A DNA stretch of 44,397 bases from Aquificota bacterium (lineage in GTDB: Bacteria > Aquificota > Aquificia > Aquificales > Aquificaceae): contig JAUZRJ010000081.1 in NCBI GenBank assembly GCA_030950545.1, positions 1 through 44,397 on the forward strand, in the 5' to 3' direction. The notes beneath the pieces are model-generated. The model had not been told where the DNA came from. It was given only the letters and a program-made list of their open reading frames with translations, and made no database searches. Positions 2,977-34,836 of this stretch are shown here, in pieces. The position numbers were made by a program, and so were the translations under genes. The stretch's first letter is position 1; every line of letters begins with the position of its first letter.

Positions 2977-3468
2977 CTAAACTATTCTGCCCAGGACCTT
3001 CTCCCCCAGCTTTACGTGATACTCTAAGGTCCTCATTATGTCCTCAACCGTCTGTGCTATCTCATCGGTCGCCAGATTCTCCGCGTCCTGTATGGAGCTC
3101 TCTATGAACTCCGCGACAGCCTCTATCCTCTCAAGAAGCGGTTCCTCGTACAGGCTGACGCTCTCCAGGAAAAGGGGGGAGAAGGTCTCAAGGGCGGGAA
3201 GGAGAATGGAAGCCAGGGAAATACTCTCCGAGGTGAGTATTAGGGCTCTCTCCTTCGCGCTCCTCTCCTGCACAGTTTCCATCTCGTCCAAGATCAGGTT
3301 TATCAGTCTGAAGATCTGCACAAGCCTTTTGAGGATGTCTATGCTCCTTGATGTGATCTCCGTACTTACACTCTGGCCCGCAAAGAGAAAGGTGTTTATC
3401 GCTTTTCTCTGAAAGCTTATCTCCTCCTCGAGCTTGGCAAGGAGAATGTAAAAGGCTCCCGTATCCAT
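2977..3468 (-). CDS. Uncharacterised helical protein between kamA and topA
   Basis: I do not recognise a family. The product is almost entirely predicted helix, rich in Leu/Ile/Glu/Ser, with no signal peptide, membrane span or cysteines. The ORF opens at 3522 but that start overlaps kamA by 38 nt. The ATG at 3468 (MDTGAFYILLAKLEEE) sits 16 nt after the kamA stop and is preceded by AGAAG, so I use it (163 aa); the longer form stays possible. The stop TAG abuts the topA ATG. Its tight position inside a kamA-X-topA operon suggests a real, translated gene. Coiled-coil or four-helix-bundle behaviour is inference only. Confidence 0.7.
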   Translation of the reverse strand: MDTGAFYILLAKLEEEISFQRKAINTFLFAGQSVSTEITSRSIDILKRLVQIFRLINLILDEMETVQERSAKERALILTSESISLASILLPALETFSPLFLESVSLYEEPLLERIEAVAEFIESSIQDAENLATDEIAQTVEDIMRTLEYHVKLGEKVLGRIV

Positions 3469-3484
3469 TATCTTCTGGATCAAG

Positions 3485-4612
3485 TTAAACGTATTCCTCT
3501 TCCGTTTCAACCCTATACTCATCTACGAGTTCTGTGTAGTCGTCGAACCAGTGGGCCTCCGGATTCCTCCTGAAGACCATGAACTTACCCCGGTTTTCAG
3601 GATCCGCAGCCCTGTGGTACCTGAAGAATATGAGGCTTTCCGTCTTACCCAGGATCTCTATCTTTCCCGTCTCGTGGGACATGACATACCTGACACGGGC
3701 TGCGAGCCCGGAAGCTCTGGCCCTGGCTCTTTCGACTATATCTACCGTCTCCTCTATTTTCGTGGAGTACGCCTTGTTACCAGCTGTGGGCCTGCACTGG
3801 AAAAGGTAGTAGGGAGGGACACCCATAAAGGACAGCTCCTCTATCAGCTCCCTTATGACCTCCGCATCGTCGTTTATGCCTTTGAGAATAGGCGTCTGGT
3901 TTGTCTGGACGGTTCCCGTCCTGTGGACAAGGTCGACCGCCTGGCGGGCCTCTTTGGTGAGCTCCCTCGGGTGGTTGAAGTGGTTCATAAGGTACAGCTG
4001 TTTACCTGTCTTCGCGTTGAACCACTCGAAGAGCTCAAGGAGGGCAGGGTCGTCGGAGATCCTGAAGGGGTTTACCGCTGTCATCTTGGAGCCTATCCTC
4101 ACTATCCTCACGTGGGGTATGTCCGCGAGGGCGGTGAGGATCTTCTCCAGCTTCTTCGTGGCCAGGATCAAGGGATCGCCCCCCGTCAGAAGGACGTTGT
4201 TGATCTCGGGATGGTTCCTTATGTACTCAAGGCCCTCGGATACGTCCCTTGCCACCTCGTCGTTATCGTTCATGAACAACCTCTTCCTGAAGCAGAACCT
4301 GCAGTATATACCGCACACATCGGTGACAAGCAGGAGGGCTGTGTCCGGATATTTGTGCTCAAGTCCGTGGACCTTGGTGTACTTACTCTCGTTAGAGGCG
4401 TCCAGCTTACCCCATACCTCCAGCTCCTCCCGTGTGGGTATGACTATGCGTCTTATGGGGTCGTCCGGGTCGTCCCAGTTTATGAGCGAGTTGTAGTAGT
4501 CGTTGGTCCTGAAGGCGAACTTTTCAGTTACTTCCTGAAGCTCTTCTCTCTCGGATTGGGGAAGTTGCTCCACGAACTTCAGATCTATGATGTATTTAAC
4601 CCTTCTTTTCAT
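3485..4612 (-). CDS. kamA: KamA-family radical SAM protein (lysine 2,3-aminomutase-like)
   Basis: Radical SAM enzyme with the cluster motif CGIYCRFCFRKRLF (CxxxCxxC) and the following LLTGGDPLI glycine-rich SAM-binding segment. The family uses PLP and SAM to move an amino group from carbon 2 to 3 of lysine, or acts on a related substrate such as EF-P lysine chemistry. At 375 aa it is shorter than clostridial aminomutase, and the C-terminal CxCxxC zinc site of that enzyme is not evident, so the substrate is open. Start: the ORF opens at a GTG (4621), but AAGGAGGTG lies 8 nt before ATG 4612, which I choose. First gene of the kamA-X-topA unit, with its own promoter. Confidence 0.85.
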   Translation of the reverse strand: MKRRVKYIIDLKFVEQLPQSEREELQEVTEKFAFRTNDYYNSLINWDDPDDPIRRIVIPTREELEVWGKLDASNESKYTKVHGLEHKYPDTALLLVTDVCGIYCRFCFRKRLFMNDNDEVARDVSEGLEYIRNHPEINNVLLTGGDPLILATKKLEKILTALADIPHVRIVRIGSKMTAVNPFRISDDPALLELFEWFNAKTGKQLYLMNHFNHPRELTKEARQAVDLVHRTGTVQTNQTPILKGINDDAEVIRELIEELSFMGVPPYYLFQCRPTAGNKAYSTKIEETVDIVERARARASGLAARVRYVMSHETGKIEILGKTESLIFFRYHRAADPENRGKFMVFRRNPEAHWFDDYTELVDEYRVETEEEYV

Positions 4613-4671
4613 AGCACCCACCTCCTTCTGGTTGATAAAAGTGAAGCTGTAGCCAGTTTTTGCAGGAATTT

Positions 4672-4699
4672 ATTTTAAATTTAAGGTCCCGGATGTCAA
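4672..4699 (-). promoter_or_regulatory. kamA operon promoter
   Basis: Minus-strand TTGACA (4694-4699), 16-nt spacer, TAAAAT (4672-4677). It gives a leader of about 50 nt carrying the AAGGAGG ribosome-binding site of kamA. It is divergent from and adjacent to the dyad-bearing lipoprotein promoter. Confidence 0.7.
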
Positions 4700-4721
4700 G
4701 CCTTCACAGACTGAAAGTCTT

Positions 4722-4744
4722 TAAAGTGTATAATCTACACTTTA
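4722..4744 (+). promoter_or_regulatory. Perfect 9-5-9 dyad over the lipoprotein gene -10 and start
   Basis: Perfect inverted repeat with arms TAAAGTGTA and TACACTTTA around a TAATC centre. The -10 TATAAT (4729-4734) lies inside it and the ATG follows 1 nt after it. The position is that of a repressor operator. A weaker dyad AGACT-GAA-AGTCT (4708-4720) sits just upstream. No convincing -35 was found at 17 nt (TTCACA is 20 nt away). Confidence 0.6.
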
Positions 4745-4745
4745 G

Positions 4746-5510
4746 ATGGGGTTTTCAGGTTTGGTTTTAGGTTTTATATTTTTGAGTTTGATGTTTTTAG
4801 AGAGCTGTGGTGTGAAAAAACCGCCAAAACCACCTCCTTATCCTGAGTTTCAGGTTAAGAGAATAGGCGATCTCGTTTACGTGATCCCGAAAGGTAGAGA
4901 AGTTGTGGTTAAGGGTTTCGTGAAAGGAGAAGGATTCTGGTACAGGAAGGAAGAAGGAAGGTTCTGTTTTAAAGTCTCACACAGGAGGGGCAGATCGGTT
5001 CTGAGCTGTGTTGAGGGCAAGGTGACGGGCAAGCCCGAGGTTGAGGTCAGGGTTCTGGAGGACAGAGTGGTGATACGGGCAAGGGGGTTTGAGGGTTACA
5101 GGGTGTATCCGGTGATGGATGAGCTTATACCGATAGAGGTAGCCAGGTTCCGGAATGAGACCACCCTGAGGAGGGAACACACCCTGAGAAGATACGGGAT
5201 CACAGGAGTTGTACGGGGTGCGGAGACGGAGCCTGTAATAGTTGAGGTTCCTCCCCTGGAGCCTCCGGTCCCTGATCCTCCTGAAGATCTCAGCTACACC
5301 GTCAGAGGAAACAGAATAGTTATCTTCTGGAGGTGGGAGGAGGGTGTGAGCTACCTTGTCTACAGAGGGGATAAACTACTCACGGAAAAGCCTATAAAGA
5401 CAAACGTCTTCGTGGACGACCTCCCGCCAAGGGTGACCGTTTACAGGGTTGTTGCTGTGAACAGATTCGGGAAGAGAAGCAGACCCGCGGTTATAGTTTA
5501 CAGGCCGTAA
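4746..5510 (+). CDS. Putative lipoprotein with fibronectin-III-like C-terminal domain
   Basis: The hydrophobic N-terminus (GLVLGFIFLSLMFLESCG) ends in a lipobox-like LESC, so lipidation at Cys21 and envelope attachment are likely. A proline/lysine stretch follows (KKPPKPPPYP). The last 90 residues (PPDPPEDLSYTVRGNRIVIFWRW...YRVVAVNRFGKRSRPA) have the look of a fibronectin type III fold. No catalytic motif was seen; an adhesive or scaffold role is inference. The -10 box ends 11 nt before the ATG and there is no Shine-Dalgarno, so the mRNA would be nearly leaderless. The 3' end overlaps the convergent carboxylase gene by 13 bp. Confidence 0.75.
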   Translation: MGFSGLVLGFIFLSLMFLESCGVKKPPKPPPYPEFQVKRIGDLVYVIPKGREVVVKGFVKGEGFWYRKEEGRFCFKVSHRRGRSVLSCVEGKVTGKPEVEVRVLEDRVVIRARGFEGYRVYPVMDELIPIEVARFRNETTLRREHTLRRYGITGVVRGAETEPVIVEVPPLEPPVPDPPEDLSYTVRGNRIVIFWRWEEGVSYLVYRGDKLLTEKPIKTNVFVDDLPPRVTVYRVVAVNRFGKRSRPAVIVYRP

Positions 5511-6931
5511 TGGGCAGCTATCGCGGCGGATATGGCGAGGACCATATCCTCCTTATCTATCTCACCCTCCACCTCAAAGTCGTACTCGCCCCTCCGCAGT
5601 TTCTCCTCCAGAAACCTGACCCCGAAGTCCCCCTTCATGAAATCCGGGTCCCTGACTATCTCCCTGTAGAGGGGTATATTGGTGGGTATACCCCTTATGA
5701 TGAACTCGTCTATGGCACGTCTCGCCCTGGCGACCGCCTTTTCCCAGGTAAGGGCCCAGACTGTCATCTTGGCTATGAGTGAGTCGTAGTAGGGGGGTAT
5801 TATGTAGTCCTTGTAGACGCTCGCGTCTATCCTGACACCAGGCCCTCCGGGGGAGTAGTAGGCGGTTATCTTGCCCGGTGAGGGAGCGAAGTTCTTCTTC
5901 GGGTCCTCCGCGTTTATCCTGAACTCTATGGCGTAACCCCTGAAGGTTATATCGCTCTGGAGATAGGGAAGGGGTTCTCCCGCAGCTATCCTTATCATCA
6001 TCTCCACTATGTCCACACCCGTTATCGTCTCGGTTATGGTGTGCTCGACCTGAAGCCTCGTGTTCATCTCTATGAAGTAAAACTCCTTACTTTCCCTGTC
6101 CACGAGAAACTCAAGGGTCCCCGCGTTCTCGTAGCCCACCTTCATGAGCGCCTTAACCGCACTCCCCAGTATCCTCATCCTGAGCTCCTGGTCCAGGGCG
6201 GGCGACGGGGCTATCTCTATGAGCTTCTGGTGCCTCCTCTGGATCGAGCAGTCCCTCTCCCCGAGGTGTATTATGTTCCCGTATCTGTCTCCGAGGACCT
6301 GAACCTCTATGTGCTTGGGGTTGTCAAGATACCTCTCTATGAAGAGGTCTCCCTTCCCGAAGAAGGTCTCCGCCTCCCTGAAGGCGGACTCGAAGGACCT
6401 CTCGAGCTCTTCCTCCGATCTTACGACCCTCATACCCCTACCGCCCCCTCCGTAGGCGGCTTTCAGCATGAGGGGGAAGCCTATCTCCTTAGCAGCATGT
6501 TTTGCGTCCTCAAGAGACTTGACGGGTTCATCGGCTCCGGGAACTACGGGGAGACCCGCCTCCTTCATTATCCTCTTAGCCTTCACCTTGTCACCGAACA
6601 TCTCTATCTGTTCAGGTGTCGGACCTATGAAGACTATCCCCCTCTTCCTGCAGTATCTTGCGAAGTCCGCGTTCTCCGCCAGGAAGCCGTAACCGGGGTG
6701 TATCGCCTCCGCACCCACCTGGCGGGCGAGGTCCACTATCCTGACGTAGTCAAGGTAAGCCCTCACAGGGTCTCCGGGTATGAGGTAAGCTTCGTCCGCC
6801 TTCTTCACGTAGAGGGCCTTTACATCCGCCTCCGAGTATACCGCTACCGTTCTTATACCGAGCTCCTTGCAGGCCCTTATTATCCTGAGGGCCACTTCTC
6901 CCCTGTTGGCGACGAGAACCTTCTTGAACAT
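5498..6931 (-). CDS. accC: Biotin carboxylase subunit (AccC / PycA / CfiB family)
   Basis: ATP-grasp enzyme that carboxylates biotin on a carrier subunit. The N-terminal domain opens MFKKVLVANRGEVALRII; HPGYGFLAEN, the ATP loop KAAYGGGGRGMRVV and the core FIEMNTRLQVEH are present. After the AccC-like core there is an extra tail ending DKEDMVLAISAAIAAHYGL, a feature I associate with the split pyruvate carboxylase A and 2-oxoglutarate carboxylase small subunits. The partner may therefore be acetyl-CoA, pyruvate or 2-oxoglutarate carboxylase, and no partner gene is in the window. The usual QVEHPVTE is QVEHTITE here. The ORF opens at a GTG (6958), but the family start is ATG 6931. A MerA remnant lies directly upstream on the same strand. 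Confidence 0.88.
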   Translation of the reverse strand: MFKKVLVANRGEVALRIIRACKELGIRTVAVYSEADVKALYVKKADEAYLIPGDPVRAYLDYVRIVDLARQVGAEAIHPGYGFLAENADFARYCRKRGIVFIGPTPEQIEMFGDKVKAKRIMKEAGLPVVPGADEPVKSLEDAKHAAKEIGFPLMLKAAYGGGGRGMRVVRSEEELERSFESAFREAETFFGKGDLFIERYLDNPKHIEVQVLGDRYGNIIHLGERDCSIQRRHQKLIEIAPSPALDQELRMRILGSAVKALMKVGYENAGTLEFLVDRESKEFYFIEMNTRLQVEHTITETITGVDIVEMMIRIAAGEPLPYLQSDITFRGYAIEFRINAEDPKKNFAPSPGKITAYYSPGGPGVRIDASVYKDYIIPPYYDSLIAKMTVWALTWEKAVARARRAIDEFIIRGIPTNIPLYREIVRDPDFMKGDFGVRFLEEKLRRGEYDFEVEGEIDKEDMVLAISAAIAAHYGL

Positions 6932-6947
6932 AAGGAAAATATTAGCA

Positions 6948-7073
6948 TCACTGGGCACAGCAGGAGAGCCTGGAGATATCCTTCCTGAAGCTCTGTGCCC
7001 AGAGCTTTACGCACTCGGAGAAGGTCGGGTAAACGTCCACAGTGTCTATTATGTCCGCGAGTGTTAAACATTC
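6948..7073 (-). pseudogene. C-terminal remnant of a MerA-like flavin disulfide oxidoreductase
   Basis: The minus-strand frame reads LTLADIIDTVDVYP, then TFSECVKLWAQSFRKD, then ISRLSCCAQ and a stop. This matches the end of mercuric(II) reductase, where a segment like [33 protein letters not shown] leads to the terminal LSCCAG whose paired cysteines deliver Hg(II). Only about 40 codons survive. There is no start codon or body upstream, where the frame runs into the divergent rsmA gene. It sits 16 nt before the carboxylase ATG, as if once the preceding gene. It is absent from the ORF track because it lacks a start. Assignment to MerA rather than a generic relative rests on the LSCC tail. Confidence 0.75.
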
Positions 7074-7105
7074 CACCCGACTGGAAGGCAAGTATCTTTT
7101 TACAG

Positions 7106-7843
7106 GTGAGGAGGCTGAAGAAGGAGCTCGGACAGCACATACTCGTATCGGGCGGAGTTCTAAGGAGGCTGGTAGAGTTCCTGGAGGTGTCCGAGGGGGA
7201 CACCGTGGTCGAGGTAGGGGGCGGGACGGGAAACCTCACGAGGGAGCTTCTCAGAACCCGCCTCGGGAGACTCGTAACCCTGGAAGTTGATGGTGATATG
7301 GTTAAGGAGCTGAGGAAGATAGAAGACAACAGGCTCACCGTTCTGGAGGCGGACGCCACCGCCTTTGACCTCTGCTCCCTGGGAGAGAACGTCAAGGTCA
7401 TAGGCAACCTGCCCTACAACGTGGCGTCCCTGATACTGGAGAACACGGTAAGGTGCAGGTCGTGTGTCCCCCTTGCCATCTTCACCTTCCAGAAAGAGGT
7501 AGCCCTCAAGCTGACAGGGAAGACAGAACCCGGCTGGCTTACCCTCTTTGTCCACACCTTCTACAGGGTAGAGTACATGATGAGCATCCCTCCCAAGTTC
7601 TTCTTTCCGAAGCCGAGGGTCGAGTCCGGGGTTGTGAGACTGAGAAGACGGGAGGATGCGGGTGTCGGGGATTTGATCTCGTACAAGAGATTCCTGACGA
7701 GGGTCTTCTCAGGCAAAAAGAAAAAGATCAAGAACCTTATACCCCAGGACATTGTAAACCGTGCGGGGATAGACCCGGACCTCAGACCTCACCAGCTATC
7801 CCTAGAGGAGATCCTGAGGCTGTATAATGTTCTTGAGCGATGA
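7106..7843 (+). CDS. rsmA: 16S rRNA adenine-N6,N6-dimethyltransferase
   Basis: KsgA/RsmA dimethylates the two adenosines in helix 45 of 16S rRNA late in 30S assembly. The family opening KKELGQHILV, the SAM loop VVEVGGGTGNLT, and the catalytic NLPYNVAS are all present. About 245 aa from the GTG at 7106 matches the family length. The ORF extends upstream without a stop, but that part (MPRALRTRR...) overlaps the MerA remnant antisense and is not family-like. GTG 7061 is an alternative start. The stop overlaps the speE start as ATGA. Confidence 0.94.
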   Translation: MRRLKKELGQHILVSGGVLRRLVEFLEVSEGDTVVEVGGGTGNLTRELLRTRLGRLVTLEVDGDMVKELRKIEDNRLTVLEADATAFDLCSLGENVKVIGNLPYNVASLILENTVRCRSCVPLAIFTFQKEVALKLTGKTEPGWLTLFVHTFYRVEYMMSIPPKFFFPKPRVESGVVRLRRREDAGVGDLISYKRFLTRVFSGKKKKIKNLIPQDIVNRAGIDPDLRPHQLSLEEILRLYNVLER

Positions 7844-29380: not shown

Positions 29381-30109
29381 TCACCCTCCTTTTATAAGCG
29401 CTATCATCTCCCTGACCGCCCTCTCAAAGCCGAAGATCACCGCGTTGGCCACTATGGAGTGGCCTATGTTAAGTTCCTCTATTATGCCCTTAAGCCTCAG
29501 TATACCCTTTACGTTCTGGTAGGTGAGCCCGTGTCCCGCGTAAACCCTGATGCCCAGATCCCTCGCGACCCTTCCCGCCCTCTCCAGGCGCTTCAGCTCC
29601 TCCTCCGCCTCCTTAAACCTGTGTTCGTTCCAGAGATTCGCGTAGGTCCCCGTGTGGAGCTCGACCGCGTCCGCCCCCACTTCCCTGCTTGCTCTGACCT
29701 GATCCTCCTCCGGGTCTATGAAGAGGGAGACCTCTATCCCCGCACCCTTAAGGGGCTCTATGAAAGTTTTTAAGACCTCTTTTGATGAGACAACGTCAAG
29801 CCCCCCTTCGGTGGTTATCTCCTCCCTCCTTTCGGGAACGAGGGTAACCCTGTCGGGCTTTACCCTCAGGGCTATGGTCCTCATCTCCTCGGTGGGAGCC
29901 ATCTCAAGGTTTACGGGGATACTCACAAGCTCCCTTATGAGCTCAAGGTCCCTGTCCTGGATGTGTCTCCTGTCCTCCCTCAGGTGAAGGGTTATCTGGT
30001 CCGCCCCTGCCTGCTGGGCTATCAGTGCCGCAAAGACCGGAGATGGCTCAAAGGTCCTCCTGGCCTGCCTTACGGTTGCCACGTGATCTATGTTTACTCC
30101 GAGACGCAT
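29381..30109 (-). CDS. pdxJ: Pyridoxine 5'-phosphate synthase
   Basis: Last step of the DXP-dependent vitamin B6 pathway, joining deoxyxylulose phosphate and aminoacetone phosphate. [51 protein letters not shown] and [10 protein letters not shown] are family blocks; 242 aa is typical. The -10 TAAAAT ends 6 nt before the ATG, giving a leaderless start. It also lies 14 nt downstream of the GGDEF-EAL stop, so it can be read through from that gene as well. Confidence 0.96.
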
Positions 30110-30115
30110 AGGGTT

Positions 30116-30121
30116 ATTTTA
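30116..30121 (-). promoter_or_regulatory. pdxJ -10 box
   Basis: Minus-strand TAAAAT placed exactly so that initiation falls on or beside the A of the pdxJ ATG. No Shine-Dalgarno in the 14-nt gap after the GGDEF-EAL stop. No good -35. Confidence 0.5.
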
Positions 30122-30123
30122 AT

Positions 30124-32661
30124 TCAGGATTTAAGCTCAGGAGAAGGTCTCCCGAAGAAAAAGCCCTGCCCGTAATCAACACCACACTCCTTCATGACCT
30201 TGAGGGTTTGTTCGTCTTCTATGAACTCCGCCACAGTTCTTATACCCATTCCCCTTGCAAGTGTAACTATTGACTCAATGAAGGTTTTATCCTTCCAGTC
30301 CGTGACAGCGCCCTGTACAAACTCCCCTTCAATCTTCACAAAATCCGCAGGAATCTTCTTCAGGTAATGGAAAGAAGAGTATCCAGAACCAAAGTCGTCT
30401 ATGGCAAAGCTGACTCCTATATCTTTCAGGGAGCGGGCAAAGGACTCTACAAGATCGGGATTCCTTATGCTCTCCCTTTCAGTAAGTTCAAAGACAACGT
30501 TTTCCGGTTTTATTCTGTAATCTTCTATCAGCTTCCTTATTCTGACCACGAACTCCTCCAGAGTAAGCATCCTTGCTGAAAGGTTAATAAATATCTTCTT
30601 ATCGTAGTTCTCCTCCCTTACCCTCCTGAACACTTCCTCATAGAGTATCATGTCCATTCTTGTTATCACACCAAGGTTCTCCGCAACTTCTATAAACTCA
30701 CCTGCAGGCATGTTCTCCTGTCCTATTCGCATAAGTACCTCATTTGCAAAGACACTGCCGGTTTTCAGGTCAATTATGGGCTGGAAGAAAGGCTTTATAG
30801 TCCTTTTGTTTAAAGCGTCCAGAACCTGTATGCTTTTTCTTGTAAGCTCACGGCGGGGCAAGCTCAGGTCTTCAAAAGAAGGCACCCTTATTCTGCTCCT
30901 TCCTTCCTCTTTCGCTTTCCTGAGCATGCTGTCCGCTATCAAAAACAGGTCCTTAGGATTCTTGGCATGGTCGGGGTAAGTTGATATCCCTATGGATACC
31001 TGCAGTACGACAACTTCCTGACCGCTTACAGAAAAGGAAGATGACTCAATAGCATCCTTTATTCTCTTTGCAAGGCTGAAAGCCTGCTCAACGTCTGAAC
31101 CTACCGCTATTATCGCAAACTCGTCCCCGCCGTACCTTGAGGCAACGTCCGCTTTCCTTTTGGTCTCAGAAAGTATCCTCGCCACTTCCCTGAGAATCTT
31201 GTCCCCGAAGGCATGACCGTAAGTATCGTTTATCACCTTGAAGTTGTCCAAATCCATCATTATCAGGGAGAGCTTCCTCCCGAAGCGGTTTGCCCTCTCA
31301 ATCTCGTAGTTGAGAAGCTCCCAAAATGTCCTCTGATTGTAGAGGAAGGTGAGCGGGTCCCTCATGGCGTAAAACTCAATGTCTTTTATGTAGGAACTTA
31401 TGGCTTTGGTTGAGCCTATAACGTTCACAAGGGTGGCAAGCACCGTATCTATAACGGGCTCTCTGTGTCTGTCCAGGGCAAGGTCGGTGGTCATACCCAC
31501 ACCCACCACCCCTCCCAAGTGGGGCTTGTCCAGTACGAGGGTCTTGGTCCTCATCCTGAGCTTTTCCTCTTCGAATCCGTTGAAGCTCTCACCTTCCAAG
31601 GCTACGTTGTGGTTTATGTTCAATGTTCTGTTACCCACTATGGATATGGGTATCCTGCTCATCACCTGCTCTTCCAGACTCTTCTCAAAGGCTTTTCTGA
31701 GTTTATCATCAGGCCTTTTGAGCCAAAAGACCTCTGTGTTTATGTGGCTGTCCTCTATAAAGATTGAGAAGACTCGCTTTACATCCGTGACCTTATGTAT
31801 ATCACCGAGCAGAGAGGATATGTACTCCTTCCAGTCCTTTATGAACTGGTGGGTGATTATGAACCTCTCAAGTATGTTAATTTCCAGCTCAAGGATATCT
31901 TTGTCTATGGCTATCTCCCTTATCTTCTCCGCCAGGCTCTTGAGGGACCTGTTCAGTTCATCAAATTCTCTGTAAGGTACCTCAGCTTCTACAAGCCTCT
32001 CTACATCTTCCACCCTTTTTATGCTTTCAATAGCGCTCTCAATGTTTTCCCTTATCCTCCTTATGCTTCTCATGAAAAGCAGGGAGACCCAGATGGAAGT
32101 CCCTATACCAAGGGGTACGATGAAGAGGCTTGATAGGAAAAAAGTGCTCCTGACCTTGGAGAACATGGAGGACATGTCTATCTTTGTTTCCACAACACCG
32201 AGAACATCACCCTCCCGCGCGTTCACGTGGCACTTTACACACTCACTCCTAGCCACTATAGGCTGGACATACCTGTACAAACTTTCCCTGATCTGGGAAG
32301 TGGAAGCTTTGAGCTTGAAAGCCTTTCTGATCACATCATCCCTCTGGGGTTCTGGCACGCTCCCGAAGAGATCAACCACCTTGTCCCCCCTGTATATGTT
32401 CACACTCAAAGGTGTGTCTGCATAGGAAACCTCCAGAGCCCTCAGAAACTCAATCACATCGCTTCTTTTCCATCCTCTGCTCATAACCTGATACATGGAA
32501 GCAAAAACCTGCCGTGATATACCCTTTGCGGTCATTTCAGCCATATCTTCTGCGGACCTTCGCACCATGCTCCAGAAGAGGAAGTAAATCGCACCGAGGG
32601 AAAACAGGAGTATGGAAAGGGTTATAAAGAAAGTTGCCAGGCTCAGAGAGCGGGTTCTCAT
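30124..32661 (-). CDS. Membrane GGDEF-EAL protein with extracytoplasmic CxxCH sensor domain
   Basis: 845 aa. Two spans (about 8-31 and 174-197) enclose an external domain that holds SECVKCHVN (C141-H145), a c-type haem attachment motif, in a context resembling the DUF3365/Tll0287-like haem sensors. A HAMP-like helix and linker (200-270) and an unassigned GAF-like region (270-420) follow. GGDEF is intact (RYGGDEF, 509-515) with the inhibitory RxxD site RKAD (502-505). EAL is near-complete (EVLMRI, INLSARML, ELTERES, IDDFGSGYSS, QGFFFGRP), with KIE in place of KID. It can plausibly both make and degrade c-di-GMP under redox or ligand control. It follows motB2 by 25 nt. Base use looks more AT-rich than the neighbours. 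Confidence 0.92.
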   Translation of the reverse strand: MRTRSLSLATFFITLSILLFSLGAIYFLFWSMVRRSAEDMAEMTAKGISRQVFASMYQVMSRGWKRSDVIEFLRALEVSYADTPLSVNIYRGDKVVDLFGSVPEPQRDDVIRKAFKLKASTSQIRESLYRYVQPIVARSECVKCHVNAREGDVLGVVETKIDMSSMFSKVRSTFFLSSLFIVPLGIGTSIWVSLLFMRSIRRIRENIESAIESIKRVEDVERLVEAEVPYREFDELNRSLKSLAEKIREIAIDKDILELEINILERFIITHQFIKDWKEYISSLLGDIHKVTDVKRVFSIFIEDSHINTEVFWLKRPDDKLRKAFEKSLEEQVMSRIPISIVGNRTLNINHNVALEGESFNGFEEEKLRMRTKTLVLDKPHLGGVVGVGMTTDLALDRHREPVIDTVLATLVNVIGSTKAISSYIKDIEFYAMRDPLTFLYNQRTFWELLNYEIERANRFGRKLSLIMMDLDNFKVINDTYGHAFGDKILREVARILSETKRKADVASRYGGDEFAIIAVGSDVEQAFSLAKRIKDAIESSSFSVSGQEVVVLQVSIGISTYPDHAKNPKDLFLIADSMLRKAKEEGRSRIRVPSFEDLSLPRRELTRKSIQVLDALNKRTIKPFFQPIIDLKTGSVFANEVLMRIGQENMPAGEFIEVAENLGVITRMDMILYEEVFRRVREENYDKKIFINLSARMLTLEEFVVRIRKLIEDYRIKPENVVFELTERESIRNPDLVESFARSLKDIGVSFAIDDFGSGYSSFHYLKKIPADFVKIEGEFVQGAVTDWKDKTFIESIVTLARGMGIRTVAEFIEDEQTLKVMKECGVDYGQGFFFGRPSPELKS

Positions 32662-32686
32662 GATTTAAGTGTATGATAATACAGCC

Positions 32687-33361
32687 TCACTCCCTCCTCC
32701 TGTTCAGGCTTATGTATATCTCAACCCTGTTGTTCCTCTCCATCAGGATAGGCTGCCTCCACGTGTAGAGGGGTCTTGTATCACCGTAACCCGCTGCGGC
32801 CATTCTCCCGGGGTCAACTCCGAGCCCCTGGAGGAACCTGACTACTTCGGTCGCCCTCCTCAGAGAGAGCTCCCACCTGTCCCTCACGTAAGGGTCCTTT
32901 ATCTCAACGATTTCGCTCACGTGTCCCTCCACCCTTATCTGGACGTTTTCGGGTAGCTTTTTCAGAACCTCAACTATCTCCTCAAGGGTCTTCCGGGCTT
33001 TCGGCGTCAGCCTGTAGGTTCCGTCTTCAAAGAAGATCTTGTCAAAGAGCCTCAACTTAACGAAGTCGGAGGTGACGACTATCTGGAAAGCCCAGGGAGG
33101 GAGAACCTTCTGGATCCTTCTCTTTATCTTCAGAGCGACCTCCTTAGGCGGTGGGTTTATCGGCTCGAGTATGGACGTCTTCTTAAGGTAGAACTTCCTT
33201 TCGGGCTGGAAGTAGGAGATGAACTTCTCAAGCTGGGCTATGTCGAGACTGCTCATCGCGTAGATGAGTATGAAGAAGGTAAGAAGCAAAGACATGAGGT
33301 CGCTGAAAGAGGTGAGCCAGGCGGGAGGTCTTTTGCACTCTTCCTTCTTCCTGAAGGCCAT
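32687..33361 (-). CDS. motB: Flagellar stator protein MotB, second paralogue
   Basis: 224 aa. The single N-terminal span PAWLTSFSDLMSLLLTFFILIYAMS holds the ion-binding Asp21. The C-terminal OmpA/MotB peptidoglycan-binding domain has VQIRVEGHVSE, DRWELSLRRATEVVRFL, AAGYGDTRPL and RNNRVEIYI. The domain diverges from motB1 in the first half. Two motB genes behind one motA is an arrangement I recall from Aquifex. It starts 9 nt after motB1. Confidence 0.92.
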   Translation of the reverse strand: MAFRKKEECKRPPAWLTSFSDLMSLLLTFFILIYAMSSLDIAQLEKFISYFQPERKFYLKKTSILEPINPPPKEVALKIKRRIQKVLPPWAFQIVVTSDFVKLRLFDKIFFEDGTYRLTPKARKTLEEIVEVLKKLPENVQIRVEGHVSEIVEIKDPYVRDRWELSLRRATEVVRFLQGLGVDPGRMAAAGYGDTRPLYTWRQPILMERNNRVEIYISLNRRRE

Positions 33362-33370
33362 GTCAGTACC

Positions 33371-34072
33371 TCAGGGGTTTAGCTTTATGCACAGCTCTAT
33401 CCTCCTGTTTCTCTCCCTTCCCTCGGGCGTGTCGTTGGGAGCTATAGGTCTGTACTCGCCGTAACCGACCGCGGATAGGAGGTCAACGGGGTAACCGCAG
33501 TCCTCGAAGATCCTCAGAACCGATACCGCCCTTGCCGCGGAAAGCTCCCAGTTTGAGGGGAACCTCGGCGTTGATATAGGAAGGTCGTCGGTGTACCCCT
33601 CAAAGGTGATGGGGAGGGAGAAGGGTTTCAGCCTGTAACATATATCCCGCAATATGTCCACCGCCTCCGGGTACGGGTTCTCGCTCCCCAAGGGAAATAT
33701 CCTCCCGGTTGTTATTCTCAGCTTCATGCAGGTTCCAGTCACGAGGTAGTCCGCCTCTATGCCCATGCTCATGAGGGTCTCCTTTATCTTGAGGATCTCC
33801 TTCTTCAGATCCGCGAACTTCTTTACCCTGAAGTGCATGTTCTCCATCTCTATGGGTATCCTGGAGGCCTTGATGGACCCGTCCTCAGAAAAGACGACCT
33901 GCCTTCCACCAAAGGCCTCTATCAACCCCTTGAGAACCTGGTAGAACTTCTCGAGAGATATTATGCTCATGGAGTAGAGCAGGATGAAAAATGTAAGGAG
34001 CAGGGACATAAGGTCTCCGAAGGAGGTGAGCCAGGCGGGAGCCTTCTTGCACTCCTCCTTCTTTTCCCTCAT
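33371..34072 (-). CDS. motB: Flagellar stator protein MotB, first paralogue
   Basis: 233 aa. PAWLTSFGDLMSLLLTFFILLYSMS carries Asp20, the ion-binding residue. The C-terminal domain has ITFEGYTDDLPI, SNWELSAARAVSVLRIFED, SAVGYGEYRPI and RNRRIELCIKL. Its ATG shares a base with the motA stop (TGATG), so MotA and MotB1 are translationally coupled. Both MotBs begin with a similar Lys-Glu-Glu-Cys-Lys stretch. Confidence 0.93.
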   Translation of the reverse strand: MREKKEECKKAPAWLTSFGDLMSLLLTFFILLYSMSIISLEKFYQVLKGLIEAFGGRQVVFSEDGSIKASRIPIEMENMHFRVKKFADLKKEILKIKETLMSMGIEADYLVTGTCMKLRITTGRIFPLGSENPYPEAVDILRDICYRLKPFSLPITFEGYTDDLPISTPRFPSNWELSAARAVSVLRIFEDCGYPVDLLSAVGYGEYRPIAPNDTPEGRERNRRIELCIKLNP

Positions 34073-34836
34073 CAGGTTTCCTCCGCCACCTCGATGCCGA
34101 GCATTATGGAGAGCTCCTGTCTGAGGATGTTCGGGTTCACACCCTTCTGTATGGCTTCTATGGCGAGGAGGTATATGTTCCTGTAGAGTATCTCGGTGTC
34201 CTTTATCTTTTTGAGCTTGGAGGCTACGGGTATGGCAAAGGCGTTGGCGAGGATAGCACCGTAGAGGGTGGTGATGAGGGCGACCGCCATGCCGGGCCCC
34301 AGGGCGGATGGGTCGTTTAGGTTTCTGAGCATCTGGATAAGACCTATTAAGGTCCCTATCATGCCGAAGGCGGGGAAGAGCTCACCGAGCCTTTCCCAGA
34401 CAGCGACGTTTGTGGATAGCCTCTCCTCGAGCTGGGCTATCGCCCCTTCCGCACTCATCTTTATCTCCTCAAGCTCCAGACCGTCCACCAGCATCCTTAT
34501 CATGTCCCCGAGGAGAGGGTCCCTCTGGTAGTAGAGGTCTATCTCCGACTCAAGGGCGAGTATACCTTCCCTCCTCACCTTGGTCGCTATCTCCGACAGA
34601 AACTCCACCGTCTCGAGGGGATCGGGAGGCTTCCAGAGGAAGGCGTCTTTGATCGAGGCAAGGCCCCTTATGAAGTCCTTGAGGGGAAAAGCACCCAGCG
34701 TCGCAGCCATGCCACCGCCGACGACTATGAATATCGAAGGGATGTTTATAAAGGCGGTCGGACTACCGCCTATGATAATGGCGATGGAGATCATGGCAAA
34801 GGCTCCGAGAATCCCTATGAGGGCTGACGGATCCAT
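34072..34836 (-). CDS. motA: Flagellar stator protein MotA
   Basis: 254 aa, four spans, of the PomA/MotA short type. FINIPSIFIVVGGGMAATL near the start, the cytoplasmic loop, and FPAFGMIGTLIGLIQMLRNL with VALITTLYGAILAN, the Pro-bearing ion-channel helices, are visible. Whether protons or Na+ drive it cannot be decided from sequence. On the minus strand TATATT lies only 4 nt before the ATG and there is no Shine-Dalgarno. It diverges from rnr across a 38-bp gap. Confidence 0.94.
   Translation of the reverse strand: MDPSALIGILGAFAMISIAIIIGGSPTAFINIPSIFIVVGGGMAATLGAFPLKDFIRGLASIKDAFLWKPPDPLETVEFLSEIATKVRREGILALESEIDLYYQRDPLLGDMIRMLVDGLELEEIKMSAEGAIAQLEERLSTNVAVWERLGELFPAFGMIGTLIGLIQMLRNLNDPSALGPGMAVALITTLYGAILANAFAIPVASKLKKIKDTEILYRNIYLLAIEAIQKGVNPNILRQELSIMLGIEVAEET

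Follow-up and report, generated by a model that had tools for sequence, protein, structure and literature searches.

The sCache_heme class (DUF3365/Tll0287-like, PF11845) was described by Deshpande et al. in a 2026 preprint. Its defining insertion is a helix that carries CxxCH and precedes the last strand, and GSU0935, GSU0582, the WalK Cache and Tll0287 are the comparison structures that define the class (PMC12889525). The preprint lists GGDEF/EAL fusions and an enrichment in Aquificota, and two of the proteins were tested, with no GGDEF-EAL member among them (PMC12889525). Periplasmic control of c-di-GMP by a covalent haem was proposed only in 2026, from domain lists (PMC12889525). His144 and Met60 are the haem ligands of GSU0935; the axial Met60 is on when the haem is reduced and off when it is oxidised, and NO or CO displaces it (PMC8396549). 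GSU0582 and GSU0935 undergo redox-linked spin and ligand switching with midpoints of -156 and -251 mV (PMC8396549).

The gene studied here lies in a window of 44,397 nucleotides, the whole stretch of DNA that was analysed. It is an intact open reading frame with boundaries at exactly 30124-32661, and its translation can be divided as follows:

30124..32661, minus strand: coding sequence, 845 aa, in the order TM, sCache_heme sensor, TM, unnamed cytoplasmic domain, GGDEF, EAL
32569..32637, minus strand: TM1 by hydropathy, about aa 9-31 in a hydrophobic segment of about aa 4-34, with the positively charged N-terminus inside
32149..32562, minus strand: periplasmic sCache_heme sensor domain, about aa 34-171, from the AlphaFold2 model, Foldseek matches and a weak PF11845 match
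32494..32496, minus strand: Met56, alternative candidate distal ligand and second invariant Met of SMYQxM, from alignments
32482..32484, minus strand: Met60, candidate distal haem ligand, HMM-aligned with axial Met60 of GSU0935 (3b42)
32227..32241, minus strand: CVKCH, aa 141-145, predicted covalent haem-c attachment motif with His145 as proximal ligand, from its invariance in homologues
32068..32142, minus strand: TM2 by hydropathy, about aa 174-198
31387..32061, minus strand: signalling helix and unnamed conserved cytoplasmic domain, aa 201-425, from alignment and AlphaFold2
30892..31368, minus strand: GGDEF domain, aa 432-590, with the GGDEF signature and the I-site RKAD intact
30145..30825, minus strand: EAL domain, aa 613-839, with an EVL motif and the catalytic residues present

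Taken as a whole, we hold it quite probable that the product is a haem-c sCache-GGDEF-EAL receptor with a Met switch and NO or redox as its input, and that its position beside the mot genes is a lineage-specific insertion. The first-pass annotation had described a full GGDEF-EAL protein with SECVKCH in its external domain, and the Pfam matches (GGDEF, E=1e-44; EAL, E=7e-61, both far above cut-offs), the hydropathy profile and the frame boundaries agree with that description. SECVKCH occupies aa 139-145, contains the single CxxCH of the whole 845-residue protein and sits in an external loop of ~140 residues between TM1 and TM2. Both output domains look active from their residues. The diguanylate cyclase keeps GGDEF at 511-515, DLDNF at 470 and the I-site RKAD at 502, and in the orthologue alignment the EAL phosphodiesterase set (E641, N693, E725, D755, D756, K776, E812, Q832) is invariant. 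The NCBIfam equivalogs matched within the generic GGDEF-EAL part alone, far below their cut-offs.

Between TM2 and the GGDEF domain, the protein has a helix followed by a conserved domain of ~150 residues, in which W313 and H351 are invariant. This domain is modeled by AlphaFold2 as part of the middle region at a pLDDT of 76.9 and is possibly GAF-like; it has no Pfam family, and neither a profile search of the PDB nor Foldseek against the PDB returned anything significant for it. The genome also encodes a haem-less paralogue (C81) with the same middle domain, and the haem sensor is therefore a swappable module.

AlphaFold2, run on an alignment of 67 sensor sequences, gave a model of the sensor with a pLDDT of 92.7, in which two helices and a small helix are followed by a sheet. 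The third and fourth strands, the last of the sheet, enclose the CxxCH helix; numbered as in the model, the motif is at 113-117, with one strand before it at 100-108 and the other after it at 125-134. Foldseek against the PDB placed GSU0935 (3b42, E=7e-5) and GSU0582 (3b47, 3e-4) first, followed by the extracellular Cache of WalK (4ywz, 3e-3, TM 0.60) and Tll0287 (5b82, 8e-3). The TM-scores to 3b42 and 3b47 are low (0.41 and 0.36), which may be explained by domain swapping in those crystals. In sequence comparison, the 67-sequence HMM ranks 3b42 and 3b47 first among all PDB chains at a weak E of about 0.12; a PDB search with a 16-member alignment gave no relevant match (best E 0.29, cytochrome c3). 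PF11845 scores 19.1-19.4 bits on the window domain, under the curated domain cut-off of 24.1, and matches all 16 orthologue domains weakly (best 2.3e-6). The predicted fold and the Foldseek matches make it a well-supported assignment that the sensor is an sCache_heme domain of the PF11845 type, a member of the class already described in 2026.

The attachment motif is kept wherever the domain is found. CxxCH is present in 16/16 Aquificota orthologues found by full-length homology, a result opposite to the poor conservation the first-pass annotation had named as fatal to its proposal, and in these sensor domains, which share 30-57% identity with the window domain, both Cys, the His, N147 and G151 are invariant. 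The wider alignment, drawn from several phyla, has it in 67/67 homologues. In addition, we scanned 84,980 species genomes with the pattern F-x-x-M-[YF]-Q-x-M, which covers another part of the domain and does not include CxxCH. The scan gave 80 loci, and every one of the 76 GGDEF+EAL frames with the sensor carries CxxCH, the motif His being 83-86 residues past the second Met. Counting all homologous frames, the motif occurs in 81 of 82, and the single exception is a broken frame. Since the motif is conserved in the orthologues, in the aligned homologues and in the frames found independently of it, it is not there by chance. Met56 and Met60 belong to the scan pattern, and their conservation was judged on the 16 full-length-homology orthologues, in which both are invariant; the wider motif SMYQxM(K/R)xGW is conserved in the sensor subfamily.

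The family is found in Aquificota, Campylobacterota and beta- and gammaproteobacteria, with Sulfurimonas, Arcobacter, Thioalkalivibrio, Halomonas, Marinospirillum, Dechloromonas and Sulfuricella among its carriers, and the sensor profile matches in 49 of 136 Aquificota genomes. A search for plasmid carriage of the family returned weak GGDEF-EAL matches only.

Covalent attachment would require a maturation system, and the host encodes the system II machinery, as judged from profile matches. One component is in the window and the second, ResB (303 bits), is on contig C43 of the same genome:

10179..11114, plus strand: ccsB/ccsA, system II cytochrome c maturation (TIGR03144, 261 bits, cut-off 187.6)

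The invariant CxxCH, the fold match to crystallised haem-c sensors, the conserved Met and the system II genes together strongly support a haem-c sensor on sequence and modeling grounds. A haem-less relic, in which the CxxCH is structural or a degenerate Cache holds another ligand, could account for the PF11845 score under the cut-off; we regard it as very improbable, as C, C and H stay invariant across several phyla while the remaining domain drops to about 25-50% identity, the model matches crystallised haem domains, and the maturation system is present.

As for the ligands of the putative haem, when the family HMM is aligned with 3b42, the invariant Met60 falls on residue 26 of the chain. 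This chain has its CxxCH at 106-110, which corresponds to Cys140-His144 of GSU0935, and its residue 26 is therefore Met60 of GSU0935. This alignment suggests an axial Met in the N-terminal helix as in GSU0935, and with it a Met-on/Met-off switch responding to redox or NO. Among the 67 aligned homologues there is no invariant Cys beyond the motif, so that Cys/His ligation of the Tll0287 type is disfavoured, and a Tll0287-type redox protein was rejected for want of the distal Cys in this alignment.

The first-pass annotation had proposed that a covalently bound haem may sense redox state, NO or O2. The haem-c part of that proposal fits the motif, the fold, the Met and the maturation genes. The only membrane-bound sCache_heme protein tested so far binds NO with slow release and does not hold O2 (PMC12889525), and by analogy with this relative stable O2 sensing is less likely, NO or redox being the probable input. 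A cd1-type nitrite reductase, to which NCBIfam gave no family name, is encoded on contig C90 of the host genome (PF02239, 412 bits, with CxxCH at its N-terminus) and is a likely source of periplasmic NO. Its cluster on C90 (L250) also contains two more genes of the D1-like type, and a divergent haem-copper oxidase encoded there may be an NO reductase. Alternatively, the haem may sense periplasmic redox potential or electron flow, being Met-on when reduced and Met-off when oxidised, with NO binding incidental. The published mechanism of GSU0582 and GSU0935 is of this kind (PMC8396549), Met60 is conserved in the family, and the orthologues in G005, G015 and G023 adjoin multihaem cytochrome c genes. 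Set against the slow-release NO binding of the tested relative and a host that should make NO through its nitrite reductase, this purely redox role is a serious contender to which we give somewhat less than an even chance.

Our preferred reading, a receptor switched through its Met by NO or redox, leads to the following scheme. A one-component receptor would bind one c-type haem in its periplasmic sCache_heme loop through Cys141, Cys144 and His145, the haem being attached by the CcsB/ResB (system II) machinery of the host. In the reduced state, the sixth ligand would probably be an invariant Met in the first helix, Met60 or else Met56, and oxidation of the haem or NO binding would displace it. 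Release of the Met could then shift the long N-terminal helix, which is predicted to run directly into TM1, together with the TM helices, and the signal would pass from TM2 via a coiled-coil linker to the conserved cytoplasmic domain, finally resetting the balance between the GGDEF cyclase and the EAL phosphodiesterase. Haem occupancy, the identity of the ligand, NO or redox as the signal and the direction of the enzymatic output are what we infer in this scheme. PilZ proteins are encoded in the host genome and are possible c-di-GMP effectors.

Other haem-c sensors of this type occur in the same genome and around the orthologues. Contig C43 (L251:5368-7215) encodes a second haem-c sCache protein. 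It has 616 aa, its attachment motif is CLQCH, its output domain is of the GGDEF type (GGEE), and its gene follows resB at a distance of about 50 bp. The resB-sensor pair is also kept in G002, G006, G009 and G011, which with the present genome makes at least five same-genus genomes (L251, L255, L258, L252, L256), and all eight copies of the ResB-linked sensor that were read carry CxxCH. In G001 (L055), the haem-c GGDEF-EAL gene at 3227-5803 is directly followed by a chemoreceptor gene at 5748-7439 with a CxxCH domain of the same type (CLMCH), and in L134 (Chromatiales) a chemoreceptor with CMMCH is encoded just downstream of the haem-c GGDEF-EAL gene. The orthologues in G005 and G015 (L059, L063) and G023 (L058) have as close or adjoining neighbours genes for multihaem cytochromes c, which contain several CxxCH. 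It is conceivable, if rather unlikely, that an uncharacterised sCache-GGDEF-EAL family, many of whose hosts are sulfur oxidisers or denitrifiers, sets c-di-GMP by periplasmic NO or redox and acts here in tandem with the ResB-linked GGDEF protein. If so, c-di-GMP would also report cytochrome c maturation or denitrification. A haem-c c-di-GMP sensor within a cytochrome c maturation operon is noteworthy in its own right.

The gene is directly preceded by motA, motB1 and motB2 on the same strand, with a gap of 25 bp, as the first-pass annotation had placed it, and directly followed by pdxJ and galU:

34072..34836, minus strand: motA (PF01618)
33371..34072, minus strand: motB1 (PF13677 and OmpA)
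32687..33361, minus strand: motB2, left flank of the insertion, from Pfam and comparison with relatives
32662..32686, minus strand: motB2-side junction, 25 bp that the empty sites of relatives lack
30110..30123, minus strand: pdxJ-side junction, 14 bp, in which the leader TAAAATAACC is retained, which precedes pdxJ in several empty-site relatives
29381..30109, minus strand: pdxJ, right flank of the insertion, from Pfam and comparison with relatives

In nine genomes of the same genus (G002, G003, G004, G008, G009, G010, G011, G014, G016), motB2 is followed by pdxJ within about 20 bp. In the window, the 2.5-kb gene splits the two, with the TAAAATAACC leader left on the far side and 25 unrelated bases before its start. 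Because motB2 stands directly before pdxJ in these nine genomes, the gene is the insert. It interrupts a motA-motB1-motB2-pdxJ-galU run that is otherwise intact, and its place behind the mot genes is specific to this lineage. At the other gene-carrying loci with flanking DNA, no mot, pdxJ, galU or rnr gene was found close by, and adjacency to mot genes was seen in this genome only. Clustering the flanking frames of about 90 loci gave no recurrent neighbour partner; the neighbours are local and lineage-specific. Inserts of about 1.7 kb were also seen at the same motB2-pdxJ point in L219 (3821-5502, G006) and L220 (3864-5639, G001), which suggests a repeatedly used insertion site.

The gene had been noted as AT-rich and possibly acquired later; its composition confirms the first point and supports the second for the present position. 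Its GC content is 0.468 and its GC3 0.570, against means of 0.546 +/- 0.021 and 0.692 +/- 0.054 for the 33 other frames of the window, some of which are shadow frames; its GC is the lowest of the 34 and is under that of all other GGDEF loci of the genome (0.518-0.572). In the gene tree, in which the Sulfuricella row is a wrongly picked frame and was ignored, the window gene pairs, with support of 99/98, with that of G019, whose genus is a different one and to which it is 61-62% identical. The copies of its own genus, in G003, G016 and G001 (55-61% identity), group elsewhere. No copy was found in the closest relatives by pdxJ and motA (G002, G008, G011), whose genomes are 79-89% complete. The pdxJ tree is mostly unresolved, and the species placement therefore rests on genus membership and on pdxJ, motA and motB identities. 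Acquisition or relocation to the present position is well supported because of the empty sites, the atypical GC and a gene tree at odds with genus membership. Differential loss of paralogues may instead explain the distribution.

These results weigh on the direct coupling of redox sensing to swimming that had been read from the gene order, and the gene order does not support the coupling: the adjacency belongs to this genome and arose by insertion into an otherwise intact run. The insertion may give co-transcription with the mot genes, and the protein may affect motility via c-di-GMP, but the position does not reflect a conserved functional link to motAB. A dedicated motility switch, in which c-di-GMP turnover by the protein acts on the MotA/MotB stators of the same operon, would suit a gene on the same strand 25 bp behind motB2, and so probably co-transcribed, in a genome that encodes PilZ proteins. 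We consider it improbable in view of the other family loci, which have no adjoining mot gene, the relatives in which motB2 leads directly into pdxJ, and the atypical GC of the gene. The adjacency to motAB should accordingly be treated with caution, as an insertion and not as evidence of a motor switch. The analysis yields a clearly delimited, multi-phylum set of orthologues with an invariant candidate ligand, Met60, and outputs that look catalytically intact. This set includes proteins of thermophilic Aquificota, whose stability should probably suffice for spectroscopy and crystallography.

In general, the window protein shares features with several known systems. DosP and the H-NOX- or NosP-linked GGDEF/EAL enzymes are alike in placing c-di-GMP turnover under haem control. 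These enzymes are cytoplasmic, carry non-covalent haem b and have sensor domains unrelated to that of the window protein. DcrA of Desulfovibrio vulgaris, a periplasmic haem-c sensor of redox or O2 (PMC8396549), resembles the window protein by description, but its output is a chemoreceptor. Tll0287 (5B82) has the same haem-c Cache fold, but it stands alone and is Cys/His-ligated, whereas the window family has no equivalent invariant Cys. The chemoreceptor sensors GSU0582 and GSU0935 of Geobacter (3B47, 3B42) are the best fold matches to the window sensor, and their CxxCH lies about 84-85 residues past the axial Met60, which aligns with Met60 of the window protein; their output is a chemoreceptor, that of the window protein GGDEF-EAL, and identity in the structural alignment is 12-16%. 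Within the sCache_heme class at large (PMC12889525), the window domain differs in that it matches the Pfam model weakly, as do many of its orthologues, and its subfamily differs in having SMYQxM(K/R)xGW as a conserved motif and, ahead of GGDEF, a cytoplasmic domain that has no name. Like the class, the window protein would combine a periplasmic Cache fold, a CxxCH helix before the last strand and a TM-linked signalling output.
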